Shown: positions 26,086 through 63,144 of the stretch, in pieces
How positions within the stretch are numbered: the stretch's first letter is position 1
Layout: every line of letters starts with the position of its first letter
NCBI GenBank assembly: GCA_001897535.1
Contig: MKTC01000007.1
Location: 124,001-188,000 of the forward strand
DNA: 64,000 bases
Origin: Bacteroidetes bacterium 37-13
GTDB lineage: Bacteria > Bacteroidota > Bacteroidia > Chitinophagales > LD1
Reading direction: 5' to 3'
The notes under the pieces: generated by a model
Databases searched by the model: none
What the model saw: the letters and a program-made list of their open reading frames with translations, nothing else
Told to the model about the DNA's origin: nothing
Program-made: the position numbers and the translations under genes

Positions 26086-27384
26086 ATGAACTTAAAGAAA
26101 ACACTTCCGATTATTACTGCTTTAGCATTTTCGCTTGGCGCTGCTGCCCAAAATATTTTTTACAATAATGGAGCAAACATCAGCATTACAGACGATGTAG
26201 ATGTTTATGTAGGTTTCGATTTGCAAAATGATGCGGCTTTAGGTTTTTTATCAAATGCAGGAAGACTTACCATAAAAGGCAATTTGATTAACAATGCTGA
26301 ACTCACCGGAGGAAGCTTTACCAATCAACCAATTGGCAGCGATACTGGCGTTTTTAACCTTTATGGAAATTGGGAAAATAATAAAACTTTTAAAGCTGAC
26401 GAAAGCACTGTGAAGTTGCTTAGTAATTTACAATTTGTAAAAGGAAATTCAATTACAAGTTTCTATAATTTAGAAACACAAGAAACTCCAAATTCGGTAA
26501 AAACATTAGATAATATTGATGCTAATGTTACAAACCTTTTCACTATAAAAAATGGTGTAGAGTTTGCAACAAGAACTAATAAATTAAACATTACTTCAAA
26601 CAATACTGGCGCTATTGCTTATGACGAAAATTCATTTGTGAGCAGTGAAGGTTTAGGCCGCTTAACACGCGCCACTGCTGCCGTTGGCGATTATTATTTC
26701 CCTTTGGGTTCAAGCACTTCCGGAACTGCTACTATTCGCCCAATTATTTTAAAACCTGCCGATAGCAAAAGTGCTGTTTACGATGCTCGTTTTGTTCACA
26801 GCGACCCAACAACCGATGGTTTTGATGTTGCGACAAAAGCAGCAAATGTAGATGTGGTGAACTCAAAATTTTACCACCTTGTTAAGCAATCTTTTGGCGA
26901 TAGCCTTGCTGCTGATTTAAGCATTTTATACAAGCAAAATAGCGATGGAAGTTTTAATAGCATCGGACGCTGGCAAGGAGTTCCACAATGGCAAGATTTA
27001 ATTGCAGAAAGCAACCAATCTTCAACTCCATTTGATTTTGTAACTAAAAAGGCATGGAAAAGCACCGATAATCAAGCACACGCGCTTATTACCAAAAAGA
27101 ATATTAAAGAGTATGAATTTCCATCTGTATTTACACCAAATGGCGATGGTAGAAACGACCGTTTTGGAATGGTACAGGGAAGTGTAGCTACTTTGCAATC
27201 TTTAAAAATCTACAACCGCTGGGGGCAGCTGGTTTTCGATAAACAAAAGGAAAACTCCGACACTTGGGATGGTTTTTACTTAGATAAATTACAACCAAAC
27301 GATACTTATATACTTTATGCAACAATTAAGTTATTGAATGGTGATATAAAAAATGAAACACTTCCATTTACCATAATTCGATAA
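26086..27384 (+). CDS. T9SS type B cargo protein (gliding-motility C-terminal domain)
   Basis: A 432-residue secreted protein with a signal peptide (LPIITALAFSLGAAAQ). The middle is beta-strand-rich and unassigned. The C-terminus carries the type B sorting domain: FPSVFTPNGDGRNDRFG, then LKIYNRWGQLVFD and WDGFYLDKLQPNDTYILYATI. Such proteins are exported by the T9SS and usually need a PorP/SprF-family protein for surface delivery; one is encoded immediately downstream, although a strong terminator separates the two. The stop is followed by that hairpin at 27413-27444. Confidence 0.88.
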   Translation: MNLKKTLPIITALAFSLGAAAQNIFYNNGANISITDDVDVYVGFDLQNDAALGFLSNAGRLTIKGNLINNAELTGGSFTNQPIGSDTGVFNLYGNWENNKTFKADESTVKLLSNLQFVKGNSITSFYNLETQETPNSVKTLDNIDANVTNLFTIKNGVEFATRTNKLNITSNNTGAIAYDENSFVSSEGLGRLTRATAAVGDYYFPLGSSTSGTATIRPIILKPADSKSAVYDARFVHSDPTTDGFDVATKAANVDVVNSKFYHLVKQSFGDSLAADLSILYKQNSDGSFNSIGRWQGVPQWQDLIAESNQSSTPFDFVTKKAWKSTDNQAHALITKKNIKEYEFPSVFTPNGDGRNDRFGMVQGSVATLQSLKIYNRWGQLVFDKQKENSDTWDGFYLDKLQPNDTYILYATIKLLNGDIKNETLPFTIIR

Positions 27385-27412
27385 CCAATCAACAAAACTT
27401 TTTCAGCTTAAA

Positions 27413-27452
27413 ATGCTCTTCAAAATATTAAATTTGAAGAGCATTTTTTTTT
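27413..27452 (+). terminator. Intrinsic terminator between the type B cargo and porP/sprF
   Basis: A perfect 12-base stem, atgctcttcaaa (27413-27424) and tttgaagagcat (27433-27444), eight-base loop and eight T. The next ATG is nine bases after the T run, so the downstream gene depends on read-through or on a promoter in the stem. Confidence 0.92.
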
Positions 27453-27460
27453 GAAACTGA

Positions 27461-28462
27461 ATGAAAAAGGTAATTCTCTTTTTGGGCTATGTTTTTTTAT
27501 ACTTCAGTATAACTGCTCAGGATATTCATTACACTCAATTTTTTAATGCGCCATTAACTTTAAACCCTGCTCTTACCGGACTCACCAGAGGCGACTACCG
27601 CTTGGGTGCAGCCTACCGCGGGCAATGGACAGATACCAGCCAAACATTATACTCTACTCCTTCATTATTTTTTGATATGCCGATACACATATTGAATGAT
27701 GCTATTGGCATTGGCGGAATTTTAAAAAGCAATGTTGTAAATACAAACTCATTACGTGCTTTTACCGGATGCTTTTCTGTTTCTTACATAAAATCTTTAG
27801 GGAAGAAAAATAATCATCAACTTTCGATAGGTGCGCAAATCGGCTACAGTAATAAGTTTATCAATGCAACTGAACTGCCATTCTCAACTCAATTTATTGG
27901 CAACACCAATATTCCAACACCAACAAACGGTATAGACTACATACCAACTTCATTTAGTGTTTTTAATGTGAATGCAGGAGTACTTTGGTTTGGAAGAATT
28001 GACCAGCGCATTAGCATGTATGCCGGAGCAAGTGTTTACAATGTGTTTTCAGCGCAAGCACAGCCTGCAAGTTTAGCTACACAACGATTTTTGAAATGGA
28101 ATGTGCACACAGGAATTGATATTACGCTTGGGCGAATAGTGCATTTGCTCCCAAGCTTCCTTTTCAATATGCAGCCCAATGCCAATGAACTTTTGCCCGG
28201 ACTTTCTATTGCTTATGATATAACTCCGGCTGCGACCCTAACACTGGGAAGTATTTTGCACACCCACAATTTTTATAGTAAAAACGCAAATATCAATGCT
28301 GCTGCGCTTTACACATCATTTGATTTTAAAGGATTTAAGTTAGGATTAAGCTATGACTTTCCTATTTCAAAAACACAGAAATTAGGAGCAATAGAAATTA
28401 CTGCAATTTATATCGGCAAAAAGAAAAACAGCAAAAGCATTATCTTTTGCCCAATGTTTTAG
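27461..28462 (+). CDS. T9SS membrane protein, PorP/SprF family
   Basis: A 333-residue outer membrane beta-barrel protein. After the signal peptide it opens with DIHYTQFFNAPLTLNPALTG, the family signature, and continues YRLGAAYRGQW. SprF-type members are needed to secrete and attach type B cargo such as SprB in gliding bacteria. The cargo gene directly upstream ends in a type B domain, so this is probably its dedicated partner (inference from gene order). The stop lies one base from the convergent serA stop. Confidence 0.9.
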   Translation: MKKVILFLGYVFLYFSITAQDIHYTQFFNAPLTLNPALTGLTRGDYRLGAAYRGQWTDTSQTLYSTPSLFFDMPIHILNDAIGIGGILKSNVVNTNSLRAFTGCFSVSYIKSLGKKNNHQLSIGAQIGYSNKFINATELPFSTQFIGNTNIPTPTNGIDYIPTSFSVFNVNAGVLWFGRIDQRISMYAGASVYNVFSAQAQPASLATQRFLKWNVHTGIDITLGRIVHLLPSFLFNMQPNANELLPGLSIAYDITPAATLTLGSILHTHNFYSKNANINAAALYTSFDFKGFKLGLSYDFPISKTQKLGAIEITAIYIGKKKNSKSIIFCPMF

Positions 28463-28463
28463 C

Positions 28464-29696
28464 CTAATACACCGCACGAACTTTTATTGTTTCATCAATT
28501 TCTTTCAAAACGCTTAGCGCTTCTTTAGATAGTTTTGTATCCACATCTAAAACCACATAGCCAATATCTTCATTGGTTTTAAGATACTGCCCGAGTATAT
28601 TTATTTTATGCTTAGAAAGCTGTGAGTTTATTTGCCCCAGCACGCCCGGCACATTTTTATGTACGTGTAAAATACGGTGGGTATTTGCTTGCGGGGTTAA
28701 ATTTAATGGCGGAATAGAGTGAGAACCGGTAGTAATACCACGCTCTAAATAGTTCAACAATTTTGAAGTTACATCTAAGCCAATATTATATTGTGCTTCT
28801 TCTGTGCTTCCACCAACATGTGGCGTTAAAATCACATTAGACAAGCCTGCCAATTCCGTTTTAAAAGAAGCTCCGTTTTTTTCGGGTTCAACAGGAAAAA
28901 CATCAATAGCAGCACCACTCAAATGACCACTTTCCAATGCTTTTTTTAATGCAGGAATATCTACTACATCACCGCGGCTGTGGTTAATTAAAATTGCCCC
29001 TTTCTTCATTTGAGTAAGCGTAGTTTCATTTAATAAGTTATGTGTGGTTTTATCGCTTGGAACATGCAGCGTTACAATATTTGATTTTGAAAGCAACTCT
29101 TTTAAAGTCCTTGCGCTGCTTGCGTTTCCTAAAGGCAATTTACTTTCTACATCATAAAATAAAACGTTCATGCCTAAAGCTTCTGCCATTACACTCACTT
29201 GCGAGCCGATATTTCCGTAGCCAATAATACCAAGTGTTTTGCCGCGCAGTTCAAAACTCCCTTTTGCATCTTTTTGCCACACACCTTTGTGCGCAGCATT
29301 ATTTTTATCAATCACTTTGCGAATAAGCATGATGCTTAAACCAATCACTAATTCCGCAACCGAGCGCGTGTTGGAATATGGAGAGTTAAAAACTGCAACA
29401 CCATTTGCCGATGCAGCTTTTAAATTTACTTGGTTGATGCCTATGCAATAGCAACCGATTGCTAAAAGTTTATTCGCTTTTTGAAGTACTTTCTCCGTAA
29501 TTTGAGTTTTGGAGCGAATGCCCAGTAAGTGTACATCTTTCAACTCTTTAATCAATTCTGCCTCAGATAATGCGCCAGAAACTTTGCGGATATTGATGTA
29601 GCCCGCATGTTGAATTTCTTCAACCGCGGCATCGCTAATGTTTTCGAGAAATAAAACTTTTATTTTTTCCTTTGGATAACTTGTGTTGTTGTTCAT
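28464..29696 (-). CDS. serA: D-3-phosphoglycerate dehydrogenase
   Basis: A 410-residue enzyme that starts serine synthesis by oxidising 3-phosphoglycerate with NAD. The ATG at 29696 is chosen over the in-frame TTG two codons upstream. The sequence follows the short E. coli-type SerA: GCYCIGINQV with FNSPYSNTRSVAELVIG, the NAD motif GYGNIG (159-164), the catalytic HVGGSTEEAQ region, and a C-terminal ACT domain (HKNVPGVLGQINSQL) for serine feedback. It lies 51 bases downstream of an FAD-linked 2-hydroxyacid dehydrogenase gene; a 6-base hairpin (cgtaag/cttacg, 29708-29725) occupies the spacer. Confidence 0.95.
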   Translation of the reverse strand: MNNNTSYPKEKIKVLFLENISDAAVEEIQHAGYINIRKVSGALSEAELIKELKDVHLLGIRSKTQITEKVLQKANKLLAIGCYCIGINQVNLKAASANGVAVFNSPYSNTRSVAELVIGLSIMLIRKVIDKNNAAHKGVWQKDAKGSFELRGKTLGIIGYGNIGSQVSVMAEALGMNVLFYDVESKLPLGNASSARTLKELLSKSNIVTLHVPSDKTTHNLLNETTLTQMKKGAILINHSRGDVVDIPALKKALESGHLSGAAIDVFPVEPEKNGASFKTELAGLSNVILTPHVGGSTEEAQYNIGLDVTSKLLNYLERGITTGSHSIPPLNLTPQANTHRILHVHKNVPGVLGQINSQLSKHKINILGQYLKTNEDIGYVVLDVDTKLSKEALSVLKEIDETIKVRAVY

Positions 29697-29747
29697 GCTC
29701 AATTGAACGTAAGCCTTTACTTACGCAGTTGCTTAAGATTGTTTTAT

Positions 29748-31151
29748 TTAAAATATTTTAGAAGGATTTAAAATTCCATTTGGGTCGAAAACAGCTTTCA
29801 CACCGCGCATTAAATTTAGTTGCTCCTCATCAAATTTAATATCCATGTATTGACGCTGAATCCAACCAATGCCGTGTTCACCGCTAATTGTTCCTTTGAG
29901 TTGGTGTACTTCTTCAAAAATTTCGCGCACTGCCTTTTTTTGAATTATATTTTTCCATGCTTCATCACTCAATTCACCTTTCACAATTCGCACGTGTACA
30001 TTGCCATCTCCGGCATGTCCATAACACACACTTTTAAAGCCATACTTAGCACCAATTCGCTTAATGCTTTTTAGAAGAATAGGCAAATCTGCGCGAGGCA
30101 CTACGGTATCTTCTTCGATGGTAACAGCCGTTTTCTTTATGGCATAAGCCGCGTTGCGCCTCATTCTCCACAAATCGTTTTTTTGCGCTTCGCTATCTGC
30201 AAAAAGAATTTCACCACAACCAAATTCACTAATTACTTCATATAGTTTCTCGCACTCCTTTTGTATTTGCGCCATGTCGTTTCCGTCCATTTCTATTAGC
30301 AAGTGAGCTTGTGTTTCATCATCAATAGCAATGGTTACATCGCCCAAAAATTTACAAACCCATTCAATAGCATCGCGCTCCATAAACTCTAAACACGAAG
30401 GCACAATTCCCGCCCGAAAAACCGCACTCACGGCTTCACTGGCTTTTTCCATGCTGTTGAAAGGTACTAACATCACTACATTTGTAGTTGGATGCGGAAT
30501 AAGTTTCAATACAATTTTTGTAATGATGCCAAGTGTTCCTTCGCTGCCCACAAAGAGTTGCGTAAAATTATATCCTGTTGAATTTTTAAGCACGTTTGCA
30601 CCTGTCCACATTATTTTTCCTGAAGGCAAAACCACTTCCAAATTCAATACATAATCTTTTACTACACCGTATTTTACTGCGCGCGGTCCTCCACTATTGC
30701 AAGCCACATTTCCTCCAATAAAACACGAGCCTCTGCTGGAAGGATCCGGGGGATAAAATAATCCTTTTTCTTTAAGCGTGTTTTGAAGAAATTCTGTTAC
30801 CACACCTGGCTCTGTTGTTACTTGCAGGCTGCGTTCGTCAATTTCTAGAATGTGGTTCATGCGCTCGATAGAAAGTGTAATTCCACCTTCAACCGGCAAG
30901 CTATTTGCACTTAAACCGGTGCCCGCTGCACGTGGCGAAACCGGAATTTTTTGTTGATTGCAGTAGCTCAATATTTTTGAAATTTCTTCAGCAGAAACAG
31001 GCTTTAGCACTACTTCCGGAGCAAAAGATGCATCAACAGTTTCATCAACAGAATACTTCTTTATAGAAGCCTCATCAGTGTAAACATACTCAACTCCAAT
31101 TGCTTGCTGAAAAAAGACAATATCTGCTGCATCAACCTTTTTAAAATTCAT
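29748..31151 (-). CDS. FAD-linked D-2-hydroxyacid dehydrogenase (GlcD/D2HGDH family)
   Basis: A 467-residue flavoprotein of the vanillyl-alcohol-oxidase fold. The ATG at 31151 (MNFKKVDAADIVF) is chosen; the upstream extension encodes a non-conserved hydrophobic stretch and crosses a promoter box. FAD-binding motifs RAAGTGLSANS, SSRGSCFIGGN and GSEGTLGIIT are followed by the metal-site motif GHAGDGNVHVRI and SGEHGIG near the C-terminus. Relatives oxidise glycolate, D-lactate or D-2-hydroxyglutarate. Its place just before serA favours D-2-hydroxyglutarate, a side product of SerA, but the sequence motifs alone do not decide. Confidence 0.87.
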   Translation of the reverse strand: MNFKKVDAADIVFFQQAIGVEYVYTDEASIKKYSVDETVDASFAPEVVLKPVSAEEISKILSYCNQQKIPVSPRAAGTGLSANSLPVEGGITLSIERMNHILEIDERSLQVTTEPGVVTEFLQNTLKEKGLFYPPDPSSRGSCFIGGNVACNSGGPRAVKYGVVKDYVLNLEVVLPSGKIMWTGANVLKNSTGYNFTQLFVGSEGTLGIITKIVLKLIPHPTTNVVMLVPFNSMEKASEAVSAVFRAGIVPSCLEFMERDAIEWVCKFLGDVTIAIDDETQAHLLIEMDGNDMAQIQKECEKLYEVISEFGCGEILFADSEAQKNDLWRMRRNAAYAIKKTAVTIEEDTVVPRADLPILLKSIKRIGAKYGFKSVCYGHAGDGNVHVRIVKGELSDEAWKNIIQKKAVREIFEEVHQLKGTISGEHGIGWIQRQYMDIKFDEEQLNLMRGVKAVFDPNGILNPSKIF

Positions 31152-31155
31152 AGGG

Positions 31156-31188
31156 CAAAGATAAAACGGGAAAATTAGATAGATGCAA
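31156..31188 (-). promoter_or_regulatory. Promoter of the 2-hydroxyacid dehydrogenase-serA unit
   Basis: On the minus strand: TTG (31186-31188), 22-base spacer, TATCTTTG (31156-31163, exact -7 box). The box ends four bases before the ATG, predicting a leaderless or nearly leaderless transcript. Confidence 0.5.
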
Positions 31189-31239
31189 TAAACTGCTAAA
31201 AAATACACCTATCAATGAAAAACTAAATTCTTTCGGTAC

Positions 31240-31371
31240 TTATCTTATTGAAGTTGGAATGCTATCTTGGAATACTAGGTCGAGAAAAGTATACTCTTTG
31301 CCAAATTTTGGCTGGTGTGACGGCTTGTGCGACTTGGCAATGTCGCCATTTGCGATATTATTAAAATAGAT
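31240..31371 (-). pseudogene. Possible short coding relic
   Basis: Within the 252-base gap between the dehydrogenase and arfB genes is a minus-strand open stretch of 43 codons bounded by stops and lacking any ATG. It reads like protein (NGDIAKSHKPSHQPKFGKEY, then TFLDLVFQDS) and its upstream part is visibly richer in G and C than the flanks. It also contains an imperfect palindrome (CGACATTGCCAAGTCG). It may be the remnant of a decayed gene or part of a dispersed repeat; I do not recognise a family. No start, promoter or operon link supports it as a working gene. Confidence 0.3.
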
Positions 31372-31403
31372 TTATACTAAAACTAACTAATGCAGTTGTT
31401 CTC

Positions 31404-31856
31404 TCATTCTTTCCCACCTGCTGTATAATTGTTGCTAAATTTTCGTAACTGTTTTGTTTCGCTGCGATGTTGTTTGTTTTTTCTTCGTTCAATTTTCGAT
31501 AGCTCGGTTGGCGTAGATTTTTTACGAGTTTTGGTTTTTTTTAAAGCCTTTTCAATTAGATACAAAAGCGTTTCGGTGGCAATTTCTTTATTGGTAAATT
31601 GTGAACGCGATATTTGGCTGCTGGCTGAAAGATAACCTGTTGTATTTATTTTTGAAGCTAACTTTACTTCGAGTATTTGTTTTTCTTCTTGTGTGAGCAA
31701 AATGGAATTCTGAATGTGAAACGATGCAATAACTTTTGAACTTACTTTATTCACGTTTTGCCCGCCTGCACCGCTGCTGCGCACGGCTTTATACTCAAAT
31801 TCACTTTGTAATTTGCTAAACGAAATTTTGCCGTAAGGAGTGAGTGTATAAAGCAT
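31404..31856 (-). CDS. arfB: Alternative ribosome-rescue factor ArfB (class I release-factor-like)
   Basis: A 150-residue protein that hydrolyses peptidyl-tRNA on stalled ribosomes. The release-factor motif is present as RSSGAGGQNVNKVSSKV (GGQ intact, with alanine where GPGGQ is usual), and the C-terminus is the lysine/arginine-rich tail (KKTKTRKK, ERRKNKQHRSETKQLRKF) that enters the mRNA channel. The ATG at 31856 is used; an upstream TTG (31877) lies inside an exact -7 box (31875-31882). It is a single gene, divergent from asnB. Confidence 0.9.
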   Translation of the reverse strand: MLYTLTPYGKISFSKLQSEFEYKAVRSSGAGGQNVNKVSSKVIASFHIQNSILLTQEEKQILEVKLASKINTTGYLSASSQISRSQFTNKEIATETLLYLIEKALKKTKTRKKSTPTELSKIERRKNKQHRSETKQLRKFSNNYTAGGKE

Positions 31857-31874
31857 ACTCCAATTTATAAAATA

Positions 31875-31882
31875 CAAAACTA
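31875..31882 (-). promoter_or_regulatory. -7 box (TAGTTTTG) of arfB
   Basis: Exact TAnnTTTG on the minus strand, 18 bases before the ATG. The neighbouring divergent spacer also has a small inverted repeat (gttgc/gcaac, 31943-31959) of unknown meaning. Confidence 0.45.
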
Positions 31883-31988
31883 ATTAGATTTTGCTTTCGC
31901 ACTTTTGCAAATAAAATTTTCTGCTCTAATTCTTTTAATAGAGTTGCTATATATGCAACCGATTTATTTGTTTGAATTGCGATAATTT

Positions 31989-33842
31989 ATGTGTGGAATT
32001 TCCGGTTATTTTTCAGTTGAAAAAAATATAAGTGAGCAAGATTTAAAGTGCATTACCGATGCCATGCCACATCGCGGACCAGATGCTTCCGGAATTTATC
32101 AAAATGATACAAAAAAAGTAGGTTTAGGTCATCGCAGATTGAGTATTATTGATTTGAGCAATGCGGCAAACCAGCCAATGTTTTCGGCTTGTGGACGATT
32201 TGCAATGGTGTTTAATGGCGAAGTTTTCAATTACCTGGAAATAAAGGAACAACTTCAACTCCAGTGCAAAACACATTCTGATAGTGAAGTGATTTTAGAG
32301 GCTTTTGCGAAGGAAGGCGTAAGTGCAATTCATCGTTTCAACGGCATGTTTGCTATTGCGATTTATGATACGGTTCAAGATTTACTTTATCTCATTCGCG
32401 ATAGGCTGGGAGTGAAGCCGCTGGTGTATTTTCAACTTGAAAAAACAGTTGCTTTTGCTTCTGAAATTAAAGGATTATTGCAAAGTAGTTTCATTAAAAA
32501 AAATGTAGAAGTAAATAAAGCAGCGCTATATAATTTTTTGTATTTAGGTTATGTACCGGAGCCGTACAGCGCATACACCAACATTTTCAAGCTGCCTGCC
32601 GGAAGCTATGCCGTTGTAAAAAATGGGAATCTTGAAATTTTTTCTTACTGGAAACCAGAAGAAAAAGTAACTGAAAATGTTGTTACTGATTTTAAAGATG
32701 CGAAAGCAAAACTGAAGGAATTATTACTTTCTTCAGTAAAATACCGAATGGTGAGCGATGTGCCGTTTGGCGCGTTTTTAAGTGGCGGAATAGATTCGAG
32801 TTTAGTAACTGCATTGGCGCAGATCAATAGCAAATCGCCTTTAAATACTTTCTCAATTGGTTTTCAAGAAGCTACACACAACGAATCTAAATTTGCAAAG
32901 CAAGTAGCCAATCATCTTGGTACCAACCACACAGAGTTTATGGTGAGCGAGCAAGATGCACTTGAGCTGGTTGATAAAATTTTCACTGCTTACGATGAAC
33001 CTTATGCAGATTCTTCTGCTTTGCCAACCATGCTGGTGAGTAAGTTGGCGAAAGAAAAAGTTACCATGGTTTTAACCGGTGATGGAGGCGATGAACTGTT
33101 TCACGGCTATGGCGCTTACCACTGGGCAAAGCGCTTGAATAATCCTTTTGTAAAAGTAGTTAGAAAGCCTTTGGCAGCAATACTTTCCATGAGTAATCCT
33201 GTTTTAAGAAGAGGGGCAAAAGTGATAAATTACCCAAGTGAAAGCACATTAAAAAGCCATATTTTTTCGCAAGAACAATATTTTTTTAGTCAATCGGAAC
33301 TGAAGGAAATGTTGCTTCCAGATATGCAACAAAATTTATTATTGCAAGAAGATGTAGCTACAAAGCGAAAACTATCGGCCGTTGAAGCGCAATCGCTTTT
33401 CGATATTCGCTACTATTTAAAAGATGATTTGTTGGTGAAAGTAGATAGAGCTACCATGCAGTTTTCATTAGAAGCGCGCACACCATTTTTAGATTACCGC
33501 GTTGTGGAATTTGCTTTGAACGTGCATGAAAATTTGAAGATAAATAATGGCGTAGCAAAGTATTTACTAAAAGAAGTTTTGTACGATTACGTGCCGCGCG
33601 AAATTTTTAATCGCCCGAAATGGGGATTTGCTATACCGCTGGCAAAATGGATGAAACGCGATTTGAATTATATACTCACCGACTGGCTGAGCAGCGAAAA
33701 TGTGGCGCAATTTAAAATAGCAAAACCAGAGTATGTGAAGCAGCTAAAACAGAGGTTTATGAATGGAGAAATTTTCCTTTACAATCGCTTGTTTGCTTTA
33801 GCACTTTTGCACCAATGGATGAAAAAATATGCAACAAAATAA
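31989..33842 (+). CDS. asnB: Asparagine synthase (glutamine-hydrolysing)
   Basis: A 617-residue two-domain amidotransferase. Cysteine 2 (MCGISGYF) is the glutaminase nucleophile, followed by HRGPDASG, GHRRLSIIDLS and the FNGEVFNY region. The C-terminal synthase has the PP-loop SGGIDSS (265-271) for ATP binding, TGDGGDELFHGY and the late segment RATMQFSLEARTPFLDYRVVEFA. The operon with a glycosyltransferase (14-base overlap) and a radical SAM protein resembles cell-surface polysaccharide loci, where AsnB-like proteins amidate sugar carboxylates; free asparagine synthesis is the alternative. Confidence 0.92.
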   Translation: MCGISGYFSVEKNISEQDLKCITDAMPHRGPDASGIYQNDTKKVGLGHRRLSIIDLSNAANQPMFSACGRFAMVFNGEVFNYLEIKEQLQLQCKTHSDSEVILEAFAKEGVSAIHRFNGMFAIAIYDTVQDLLYLIRDRLGVKPLVYFQLEKTVAFASEIKGLLQSSFIKKNVEVNKAALYNFLYLGYVPEPYSAYTNIFKLPAGSYAVVKNGNLEIFSYWKPEEKVTENVVTDFKDAKAKLKELLLSSVKYRMVSDVPFGAFLSGGIDSSLVTALAQINSKSPLNTFSIGFQEATHNESKFAKQVANHLGTNHTEFMVSEQDALELVDKIFTAYDEPYADSSALPTMLVSKLAKEKVTMVLTGDGGDELFHGYGAYHWAKRLNNPFVKVVRKPLAAILSMSNPVLRRGAKVINYPSESTLKSHIFSQEQYFFSQSELKEMLLPDMQQNLLLQEDVATKRKLSAVEAQSLFDIRYYLKDDLLVKVDRATMQFSLEARTPFLDYRVVEFALNVHENLKINNGVAKYLLKEVLYDYVPREIFNRPKWGFAIPLAKWMKRDLNYILTDWLSSENVAQFKIAKPEYVKQLKQRFMNGEIFLYNRLFALALLHQWMKKYATK

Positions 33843-61872: not shown

Positions 61873-63144
61873 TTATACATAAAGCGGAAATGCTTTCATG
61901 TATTCGTTTATTTCGGCTTTTACTTTTGCAATATTGGTTTCGTTTTCCACGTCTGCAATAATGCTATCAATCCAATTGGCAACTTGCAGCATATCTTTTT
62001 CTTTGAAACCTCTGGTAGTAATTGCCGGAGTTCCCAAGCGGATACCGGAAGTTACAAAAGGTGATTTGTCATCAAACGGAACCATGTTTTTATTGGCAGT
62101 AATATCGGCTTTTACCAAAGCATTTTCTGCTTGTTTGCCCGATACATTTTTATTATGAAGATCAATAAGCATCAAGTGGTTTACTGTTCCTCCCGAAATT
62201 ATTTTATAGCCCTTTTCAACTAAAGCATTTGCTAAAGCTTGTGCATTGGCTGCTACTTGCTTTTGGTAAGTTGTAAATTCCGGTGAAAGTGCTTCGCCAA
62301 AAGCTACTGCTTTTCCTGCAATTACATGTTCAAGCGGCCCGCCTTGTGTTCCAGGAAAAACTGCACTATCTAAAATAGCACTCATCATTTTCAATTCGCC
62401 TTTAGGAGTTTTTTCGCCAAAAGGATTTTCAAAATCGTTACCAAGCATAATAATGCCACCGCGCGGTCCGCGAAGTGTTTTATGTGTGGTAGAAGTTACA
62501 ATGTGGCAATGCGGCATTGGGTCGTTTAGCAATTTGGTTGTAATCATTCCGGCAGGGTGTGCAATATCTGCCATTAAAAGTGCTCCAACTTCATCGGCAA
62601 TGGCTCTAAAAGTTGGGTAATCCCAATCGCGCGAGTAAGCACTTGCTCCACAAATAATTAGTTTTGGTTTCTCTTTAAGTGCAGTTTCGCGCACTTTGTT
62701 CATATCAATAGTTCCAGTTGCTTCTTCTACGCCATAAAATACAGGGCGGTAAAGTTTTCCTGAAAAGTTTACGGGTGAGCCGTGCGTTAAGTGTCCGCCA
62801 TGCGATAAATTAAATCCCATGATGGTGTCGCCCGGTTTTATGCAAGCGAGCATTACTGCTGCATTTGCTTGTGCGCCACTGTGTGGTTGTACATTTGCCC
62901 ATGTAGCGCCAAATAGTTTTTTTAAACGCTCAATTGCAAGTGTTTCTATTTCATCAACAAACTGGCAACCTCCGTAGTAACGCTTGCCGGGTAAACCTTC
63001 TGCGTATTTATTGGTTAAACAACTTCCCATTGCCTGCATCACTTCAAGTGAAGTAAAGTTTTCTGAAGCTATCAATTCTATTCCTTCGCGCTGGCGATGT
63101 AATTCTTGTTCTATGAGTTTAAAAACTGCGGTATCTTTTTGCAT
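61873..63144 (-). CDS. glyA: Serine hydroxymethyltransferase
   Basis: A 423-residue PLP enzyme that converts serine and tetrahydrofolate to glycine and methylene-tetrahydrofolate. Conserved features: [11 protein letters not shown] near the N-terminus, [26 protein letters not shown], the PLP lysine in [13 protein letters not shown], and [15 protein letters not shown]. Length is standard. With serA in the same window it covers two steps of the serine-glycine route, though the genes are 32 kb apart. A near match to the promoter box (CAACTTCG, 63149-63156) ends four bases before the ATG. Confidence 0.97.

Follow-up and report, generated by a model that had tools for sequence, protein, structure and literature searches.

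One of the closest described systems to the one considered here is that of Pseudomonas stutzeri and P. aeruginosa (PA0317), in which SerA, the first enzyme of serine synthesis, reduces 2-oxoglutarate to D-2-hydroxyglutarate (D-2-HG) and a D-2-hydroxyglutarate dehydrogenase (D2HGDH) recycles the product, as published in PMC9504171 and PMC8651671. According to PMC9504171, type II SerA enzymes commonly reduce 2-oxoglutarate to D-2-HG, and serA is reported to be a frequent neighbour of d2hgdh in other bacteria (PMC8651671); adjacency of the two genes is a pattern already known. We analysed a stretch of 64,000 nucleotides (the window) from an uncultured Bacteroidota genome, Bacteroidetes bacterium 37-13 (GCA_001897535.1, contig MKTC01000007.1, positions 124,001 to 188,000), in which a flavoprotein gene is followed by serA, both on the minus strand with 51 bases between them. 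A first-pass annotation, which rightly named the published coupling, took this gene pair to predict D-2-HG as the substrate of the flavoprotein. We surveyed gene order in 30 genomes of the window's family, 198 of its order and 296 of the phylum, and found that the pocket of the enzyme says more about its function than the serA neighbourhood, because the arrangement was seen in one genus only. We suggest, with about an even chance of being right, that the flavoprotein is a metal- and FAD-dependent dehydrogenase of the LctD/GlcD kind, with D-2-HG as main substrate and Arg388 binding its distal carboxylate.

The flavoprotein gene (29748..31151, minus strand; 467 residues, our P0001) runs from an ATG at 31151 to a stop at 29748. 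A longer open reading frame with a GTG start reaches 31208; the ATG is preferred because the gene of a second genome of the genus (G324) also begins MNF after the same bases. serA (28464..29696, minus strand; 410 residues, our P0002) starts with an ATG at 29696 and stops at 28464. That an E. coli-type serA follows on the same strand after 51 bases was correctly annotated, judging from the open reading frames and from the score of the product against PRK11790 of NCBIfam (613 bits, cut-off 404). Its PDB matches are 1yba and 1psd (E about 1e-130), which we take to be E. coli SerA, and the only other SerA match in the genome is 26% identical. It is a type II D-3-phosphoglycerate dehydrogenase with domains PF00389, PF02826 and PF22629 (ACT) and no ASB domain, and it carries motifs that we match by eye to the catalytic and serine-binding residues given in PMC6300728. 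In the proposed cycle, SerA would oxidise 3-phosphoglycerate to 3-phosphohydroxypyruvate and spend the resulting NADH in reducing 2-oxoglutarate to D-2-HG, the flavoprotein would return D-2-HG to 2-oxoglutarate, and its electrons would pass to EtfAB.

The flavoprotein carries the Pfam domains PF01565 FAD_binding_4 (135 bits, cut-off 26.4) and PF02913 FAD-oxidase_C (219 bits, cut-off 21.2). Thirteen NCBIfam models matched it and no cut-off was passed. The annotation as a member of the GlcD/D2HGDH family holds for the FAD-linked domain make-up and is otherwise too wide, the protein lying near LctD and GlcD and outside the D2HGDH family proper; it is 31% identical to the Rhodopseudomonas palustris enzyme 3pm9 and does not group with human-type D2HGDH. 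The best current label is an LctD/GlcD-like D-2-hydroxyacid dehydrogenase and probable D-2-hydroxyglutarate dehydrogenase. Three other matches to it in the genome are all partial, covering 153 to 217 residues and ending by residue 260.

The pocket can be described in the numbering of human D2HGDH, in which the C5-carboxylate of the substrate is held by T390, K401, Y432 and N443, Lys401 being essential, and the catalytic and metal residues are common to D2HGDH and its paralogues D-LDH and GlcD (PMC7801405). In our alignments the flavoprotein has all five of these catalytic and metal residues (R386, H434, H441, E475 and H476), as do human D2HGDH (6lpn) and 3pm9. At the four carboxylate positions it has Ala, Glu, Tyr and Arg; the Tyr is that of the human enzyme, whereas Ala390, Glu401 and Arg443 stand in place of Thr (Ser in 3pm9), Lys and Asn. 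Positions 400 and 401 are Ile345 and Glu346 of the window protein (codons 30114..30119, minus strand), and position 443, a C5-carboxylate contact in the human enzyme, is Arg388 (codon 29988..29990, minus strand).

Among 94 unique orthologues, 51 have Lys400 with Asn443 and 43 have Ile or Val400 with Arg443, with none mixed, and these two columns alone separate both forms fully among the well-filled columns (93 rows). From sequence, we read the switch from Lys/Asn to Arg as a positive charge for the distal carboxylate that has been relocated. The same Arg is found in E. coli YdiJ, a D-2-hydroxyglutarate dehydrogenase reported to be strict for D-2-HG, activity with D-lactate or D-malate being undetected in that account (PMC9504171). 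YdiJ also resembles the flavoprotein in a hydrophobic residue at 400 and in E-D at 402-403. It differs in its length of 1018 residues, with a second half that the window protein lacks, and in having Ala rather than Glu at 401; against the YdiJ model NF049975 the flavoprotein scores 153.6 bits, far below the cut-off of 1350. Position 443 is Arg or Lys in each of the nine YdiJ-type proteins that we read, namely those of E. coli, Halomonas (over the YdiJ cut-off), six genomes of the order and a Lysobacteraceae member (these seven below it). We also considered whether Arg or Lys at 443 marks every long fusion of the FAD/Fe-S type; it does not, as Thr occurs there in GlcD-type fusions of 849 and 844 residues, and in a third protein (777 residues) the position was not readable. 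When the pocket was read in 72 relatives of 28-72% identity taken from genome_contigs, Arg was present in two, which we take as members of the window's family, Lys in one distant protein and Asn in 29, and among 20 more distant relatives from the phylum sample none had Arg or Lys, most having Thr. The Arg form is confined to two clades, whose nearest sisters of the Lys/Asn form are G332 for one and G451 and G453 for the other. The tree requires two changes to the Arg form, and a single clade is not rejected (approximately unbiased test, p 0.268). In three orthologues (L095, L096 and L097) the Glu-Glu of 401-402 is replaced by Ser-Asp and the Tyr of 432 by Phe; in their genomes (G049, G146 and G186) type II SerA lies in long open frames of 631-653 residues.

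The distribution across genomes points in the same direction as Arg388. The flavoprotein occurs in 84 of the 198 order genomes, a YdiJ-like protein in 105 and a type II SerA in 112. Flavoprotein and YdiJ-like protein nearly exclude each other (both in 11 genomes, only the flavoprotein in 73, only the YdiJ-like protein in 94, neither in 20), with an odds ratio of 0.03, or 0.04 without the window's family, and p 1.5e-23, a value that ignores relatedness; because no more than three candidates per genome were scored for YdiJ, some could have been missed. In the window genome (G000) neither this search nor the independent flavoprotein search found a YdiJ-like protein, and none of the 30 genomes of its family gave a YdiJ-like match. 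With 193 of the 198 genomes assigned to families, eight families (f1, f53, f55, f57, f58, f59, f60 and f65) have the flavoprotein and never a YdiJ-like protein, three incomplete genomes of f1 having neither, and nine (f3, f52, f54, f61, f62, f66, f67, f68 and f70) have YdiJ-like proteins or neither. Within f63 and f69 the two swap between genomes of one family, all 11 double carriers belong to f2, and f56 and f64, with one genome each, have neither. Such a near-exclusive distribution likens the flavoprotein to the YdiJ D-2-hydroxyglutarate dehydrogenases of E. coli and Pantoea, and together with Arg at 443 it would favour D-2-HG as substrate. Relatives of human-type D2HGDH (3pm9 as query, E below 1e-80) occur in eight of the 198 genomes, all in f3, and of four that were read, three lack the Lys401/Asn443 set and one has it. 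From the distribution of these relatives and of the YdiJ-like proteins, the flavoprotein is the most obvious candidate for oxidising D-2-HG in its genome. An in-frame TAA lies inside the flavoprotein match of L083 (G091) and of L198 (G245), and G091 also has a YdiJ-like protein.

Several findings weigh against a D-2-HG dehydrogenase coupled to SerA, and the gene order is among them. Among the 30 family genomes surveyed, the flavoprotein is present in 27 and SerA in 28, and in the better genomes each is present in 22 of 22. In the phylum sample, 60 genomes had a flavoprotein match at 1e-60, of which 28 with at least 49% identity were counted as orthologues and 32 with 33-42% were dropped. Across the three samples both genes occur in 56 genomes, and they are adjacent in two, G000 and G324, both of the window's genus, whose paired proteins are 90% and 84% identical; contig ends, which were checked in part, left adjacency in G307 undecidable. 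Conservation of the pair in relatives, which had been set beforehand as a test, thus nearly fails. Among 80 loci drawn from genome_contigs, none has a SerA-like gene (P0002 as reference) in its flanks. The third genome of the window's genus (G323) has different DNA upstream of serA, and in 9 of 23 serA loci read, serA is preceded, immediately or one gene further, by a same-strand gene that by eye resembles nitronate monooxygenase. With adjacency limited to one genus, the two genes thus look as if they became neighbours recently. Across 40 flavoprotein loci no neighbour cluster was shared by more than eight, and no obvious partner was seen by eye among the 18 most shared clusters. After the surveys of family, order and phylum we regard gene order as weak functional evidence, and the serA neighbourhood is not what defines the function of the flavoprotein.

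Nor do the two genes go together across the order, where flavoprotein and type II SerA co-occur in 49 genomes with 47.5 expected (p 0.77). In the phylum sample type II SerA is present in 12 of 28 flavoprotein genomes and 43 of 268 others (p 0.0015), which relatedness could explain. We also tried the idea that type II SerA requires a D2HGDH candidate, and rejected it; a candidate is present in 105 of 112 genomes with type II SerA and in 77 of 86 without it (p 0.30), so there is no such link. Type II SerA accompanies the Arg form in 41 of 43 genomes and the Lys/Asn form in 6 of 32 (75 of the 84 flavoprotein genomes of the order read). We do not treat this association as proof, since the Arg form comprises two clades only and type II SerA is also present in the sister genomes G332, G451 and G453; seven further Lys/Asn-form genomes from outside the order carry it as well. 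The substrate predicted from the gene pair is thus partly supported, the original ground being weak while the near-exclusion and Arg388 speak for the same substrate.

The pocket itself also provides counter-evidence. Glu occupies the place of the essential Lys401 in 91 of the 94 orthologues; position 400, if it lies in a plain strand, would point away from the pocket, so that the coupling of 400 and 443 lacks an explanation; and Asn443 alone is frequent among relatives of unassigned substrate. No YdiJ-like match of Bacteroidota exceeds 491 bits when genomes are searched, with one of 550 when scored as a protein, against the cut-off of 1350, and the substrate of these proteins is therefore itself unproven. 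ETF-quinone oxidoreductase (ETF-QO, PF05187; ETF, electron transfer flavoprotein) was not found in the genome, which has 100% completeness, by a search whose control model matches in 3 of 14 known genomes. Finally, Achromobacter denitrificans is reported to have both enzymes active with D2HGDH having no role in endogenous D-2-HG turnover (PMC8651671).

The closest relatives of the flavoprotein by sequence and by fold are D-lactate enzymes. It could accordingly be an ETF-linked respiratory dehydrogenase of D-lactate, or of D-2-hydroxyacids broadly, which clears D-lactate from the methylglyoxal route and has serA as an accidental neighbour; we consider this a serious alternative that is on balance unlikely. 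The best PDB sequence match is 7qh2_C (E 4e-102), LctD of the lactate dehydrogenase-EtfAB complex of Acetobacterium woodii. It is also the best fold match (Z 49.5, rmsd 1.8, 463 residues aligned) of the AlphaFold model (pLDDT 90.4), although the differences are small, with Z about 47 for mouse LDHD and 44.6 for human D2HGDH. Of the references in the tree, which are on long branches, LctD stands closest (support 82), and the two proteins share an N-terminal MN(F/Y)KKV. The Glu at the Lys401 position agrees with a D-lactate substrate, and matches to YdiJ-like proteins and to type II SerA are both absent from 34 of the 84 genomes of the order that carry the flavoprotein, so that its function does not depend on type II SerA. 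The likeness to LctD is one of similarity, there being no curated model for it. LctD, which we take to be encoded together with etfA and etfB, differs from the window protein in this respect and in the pocket residues at 390, 400 and 443. The near-exclusion with YdiJ-like proteins points rather to a YdiJ-like role, an argument tempered by the existence of D-lactate enzymes with the FAD/Fe-S build of YdiJ. Moreover, Arg388 would be needless in a monocarboxylate pocket, and the residue at 443 is Ile in mouse LDHD, Tyr in LctD and Leu in both E. coli GlcD and 9qgz. LDHD is reported to reject D-2-HG and to have a hydrophobic pocket of Val101, Trp351, Ser365 and Ile407 (PMC10589216); Ile407 aligns with 443, and Trp351 with 390 in two alignments and not in a third.

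It is improbable that the flavoprotein acts on some other dicarboxylic D-2-hydroxyacid, with D-malate as the foremost candidate, or on both D-2-HG and D-malate. Arg388 could serve any distal carboxylate, and human and Pseudomonas D2HGDH are reported to accept D-malate too (PMC7801405, PMC9504171), but E. coli YdiJ lacks detected D-malate activity with the same Arg, and no gene for D-malate was evident by eye in the 18 most shared neighbour clusters. A GlcD-type glycolate dehydrogenase subunit is very improbable, for although the domain architecture is that of E. coli GlcD and the best NCBIfam name is glcD (TIGR00387), the score of 426.2 bits falls under the curated cut-off of 567.9, the residues at 390 (Phe in GlcD), 401, 432 and 443 differ, and GlcE and GlcF were not evident by eye in the same 18 clusters of the 40 loci, the genome itself not having been searched for GlcF.

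If the flavoprotein is a D-2-HG dehydrogenase, its electrons need an acceptor. Contig 16 carries an adjacent pair of ETF-family genes, which we take as etfA and etfB; the flavoprotein gene is on contig 7. By analogy, ETF would be a reasonable acceptor because the nearest structure is the Ldh-EtfAB complex. In P. stutzeri ETF-QO is reported to be required as well (PMC9504171); in the window genome, where ETF was found and ETF-QO was not, another route from ETF to quinone may operate. The system thus resembles that of Pseudomonas in its type II SerA, its FAD-linked D-2-hydroxyacid dehydrogenase and its ETF genes, and differs in the flavoprotein subfamily, in ETF-QO, in an adjacency limited to one genus and in being known from genes alone.

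The annotation gave the flavoprotein gene its own promoter. Four bases ahead of the ATG, TATCTTTG (31156..31163, minus strand) is a candidate -7 box, which fits TAnnTTTG, presumably the Bacteroidota consensus, and is conserved together with the ATG in G324 while the flanks have diverged; TATCTTTGCCCTATGAATTT is also identical there, most other upstream sequence being different. The promoter is suggestive only, because 8 of the 36 gene starts checked have such a box in the 60 bases ahead of them, and a plain sigma-70 scan of 27500-32000 gave 11 promoter-like sites against a shuffle mean of 13.2, with no excess. The gap between the genes (29697..29747, minus strand) differs in sequence in G324, where 44 bases lie between the matches and carry a box of their own, TAACTTTG, so co-transcription of the pair is not demonstrated.

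Convergent to serA, at 26086-28462, lie a PorP/SprF-like gene and a gene for a protein with a gliding-type C-terminal domain (names by eye), and G324 (L061:13171-15577) has the same order beside serA. No upstream neighbour of the flavoprotein gene common to the window genome and G324 was seen in the loci compared. A glyA-like gene (by eye; serine hydroxymethyltransferase, the step after serine) lies at 61873-63144, separated from the flavoprotein gene by about 31 kb. In other Bacteroidota (L279:908-2797, L281:944-2860 and L283:1529-3430) type II SerA forms the C-terminal part of a protein of 629-638 residues. The N-terminal part is an HAD-IB phosphatase, with TIGR01488 over its cut-off in both proteins scanned and the serB model below its own, and these natural fusions join two enzymes that look like the final and the initial one of the serine pathway. 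In the phylum sample 19 of 55 SerA matches lie in open frames of 627-674 residues.

Among titles and the openings of abstracts on D-2-HG in Bacteroidetes, no characterised enzyme of the flavoprotein's family appeared, and a literature search on 2-hydroxyglutarate dehydrogenase together with phosphoglycerate dehydrogenase in Flavobacterium gave no paper. More broadly, and with somewhat less than an even chance, a third D2HGDH family may have arisen in Bacteroidota from LctD-like lactate dehydrogenases, replacing YdiJ genome by genome, with interchangeable Lys/Asn and Arg anchors for the carboxylate, of which the Arg anchor perhaps had two origins and accompanies type II SerA. The locus also teaches caution, as its striking gene neighbourhood turned out to be the weakest evidence. 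Positions 443 and 400 together suggest a sequence rule that would separate D-2-HG enzymes from lactate enzymes. If the proposed function is true, a Bacteroidota family whose best name is now "glycolate oxidase subunit GlcD" would gain a function, and D-2-HG turnover in Bacteroidota would open to direct test.

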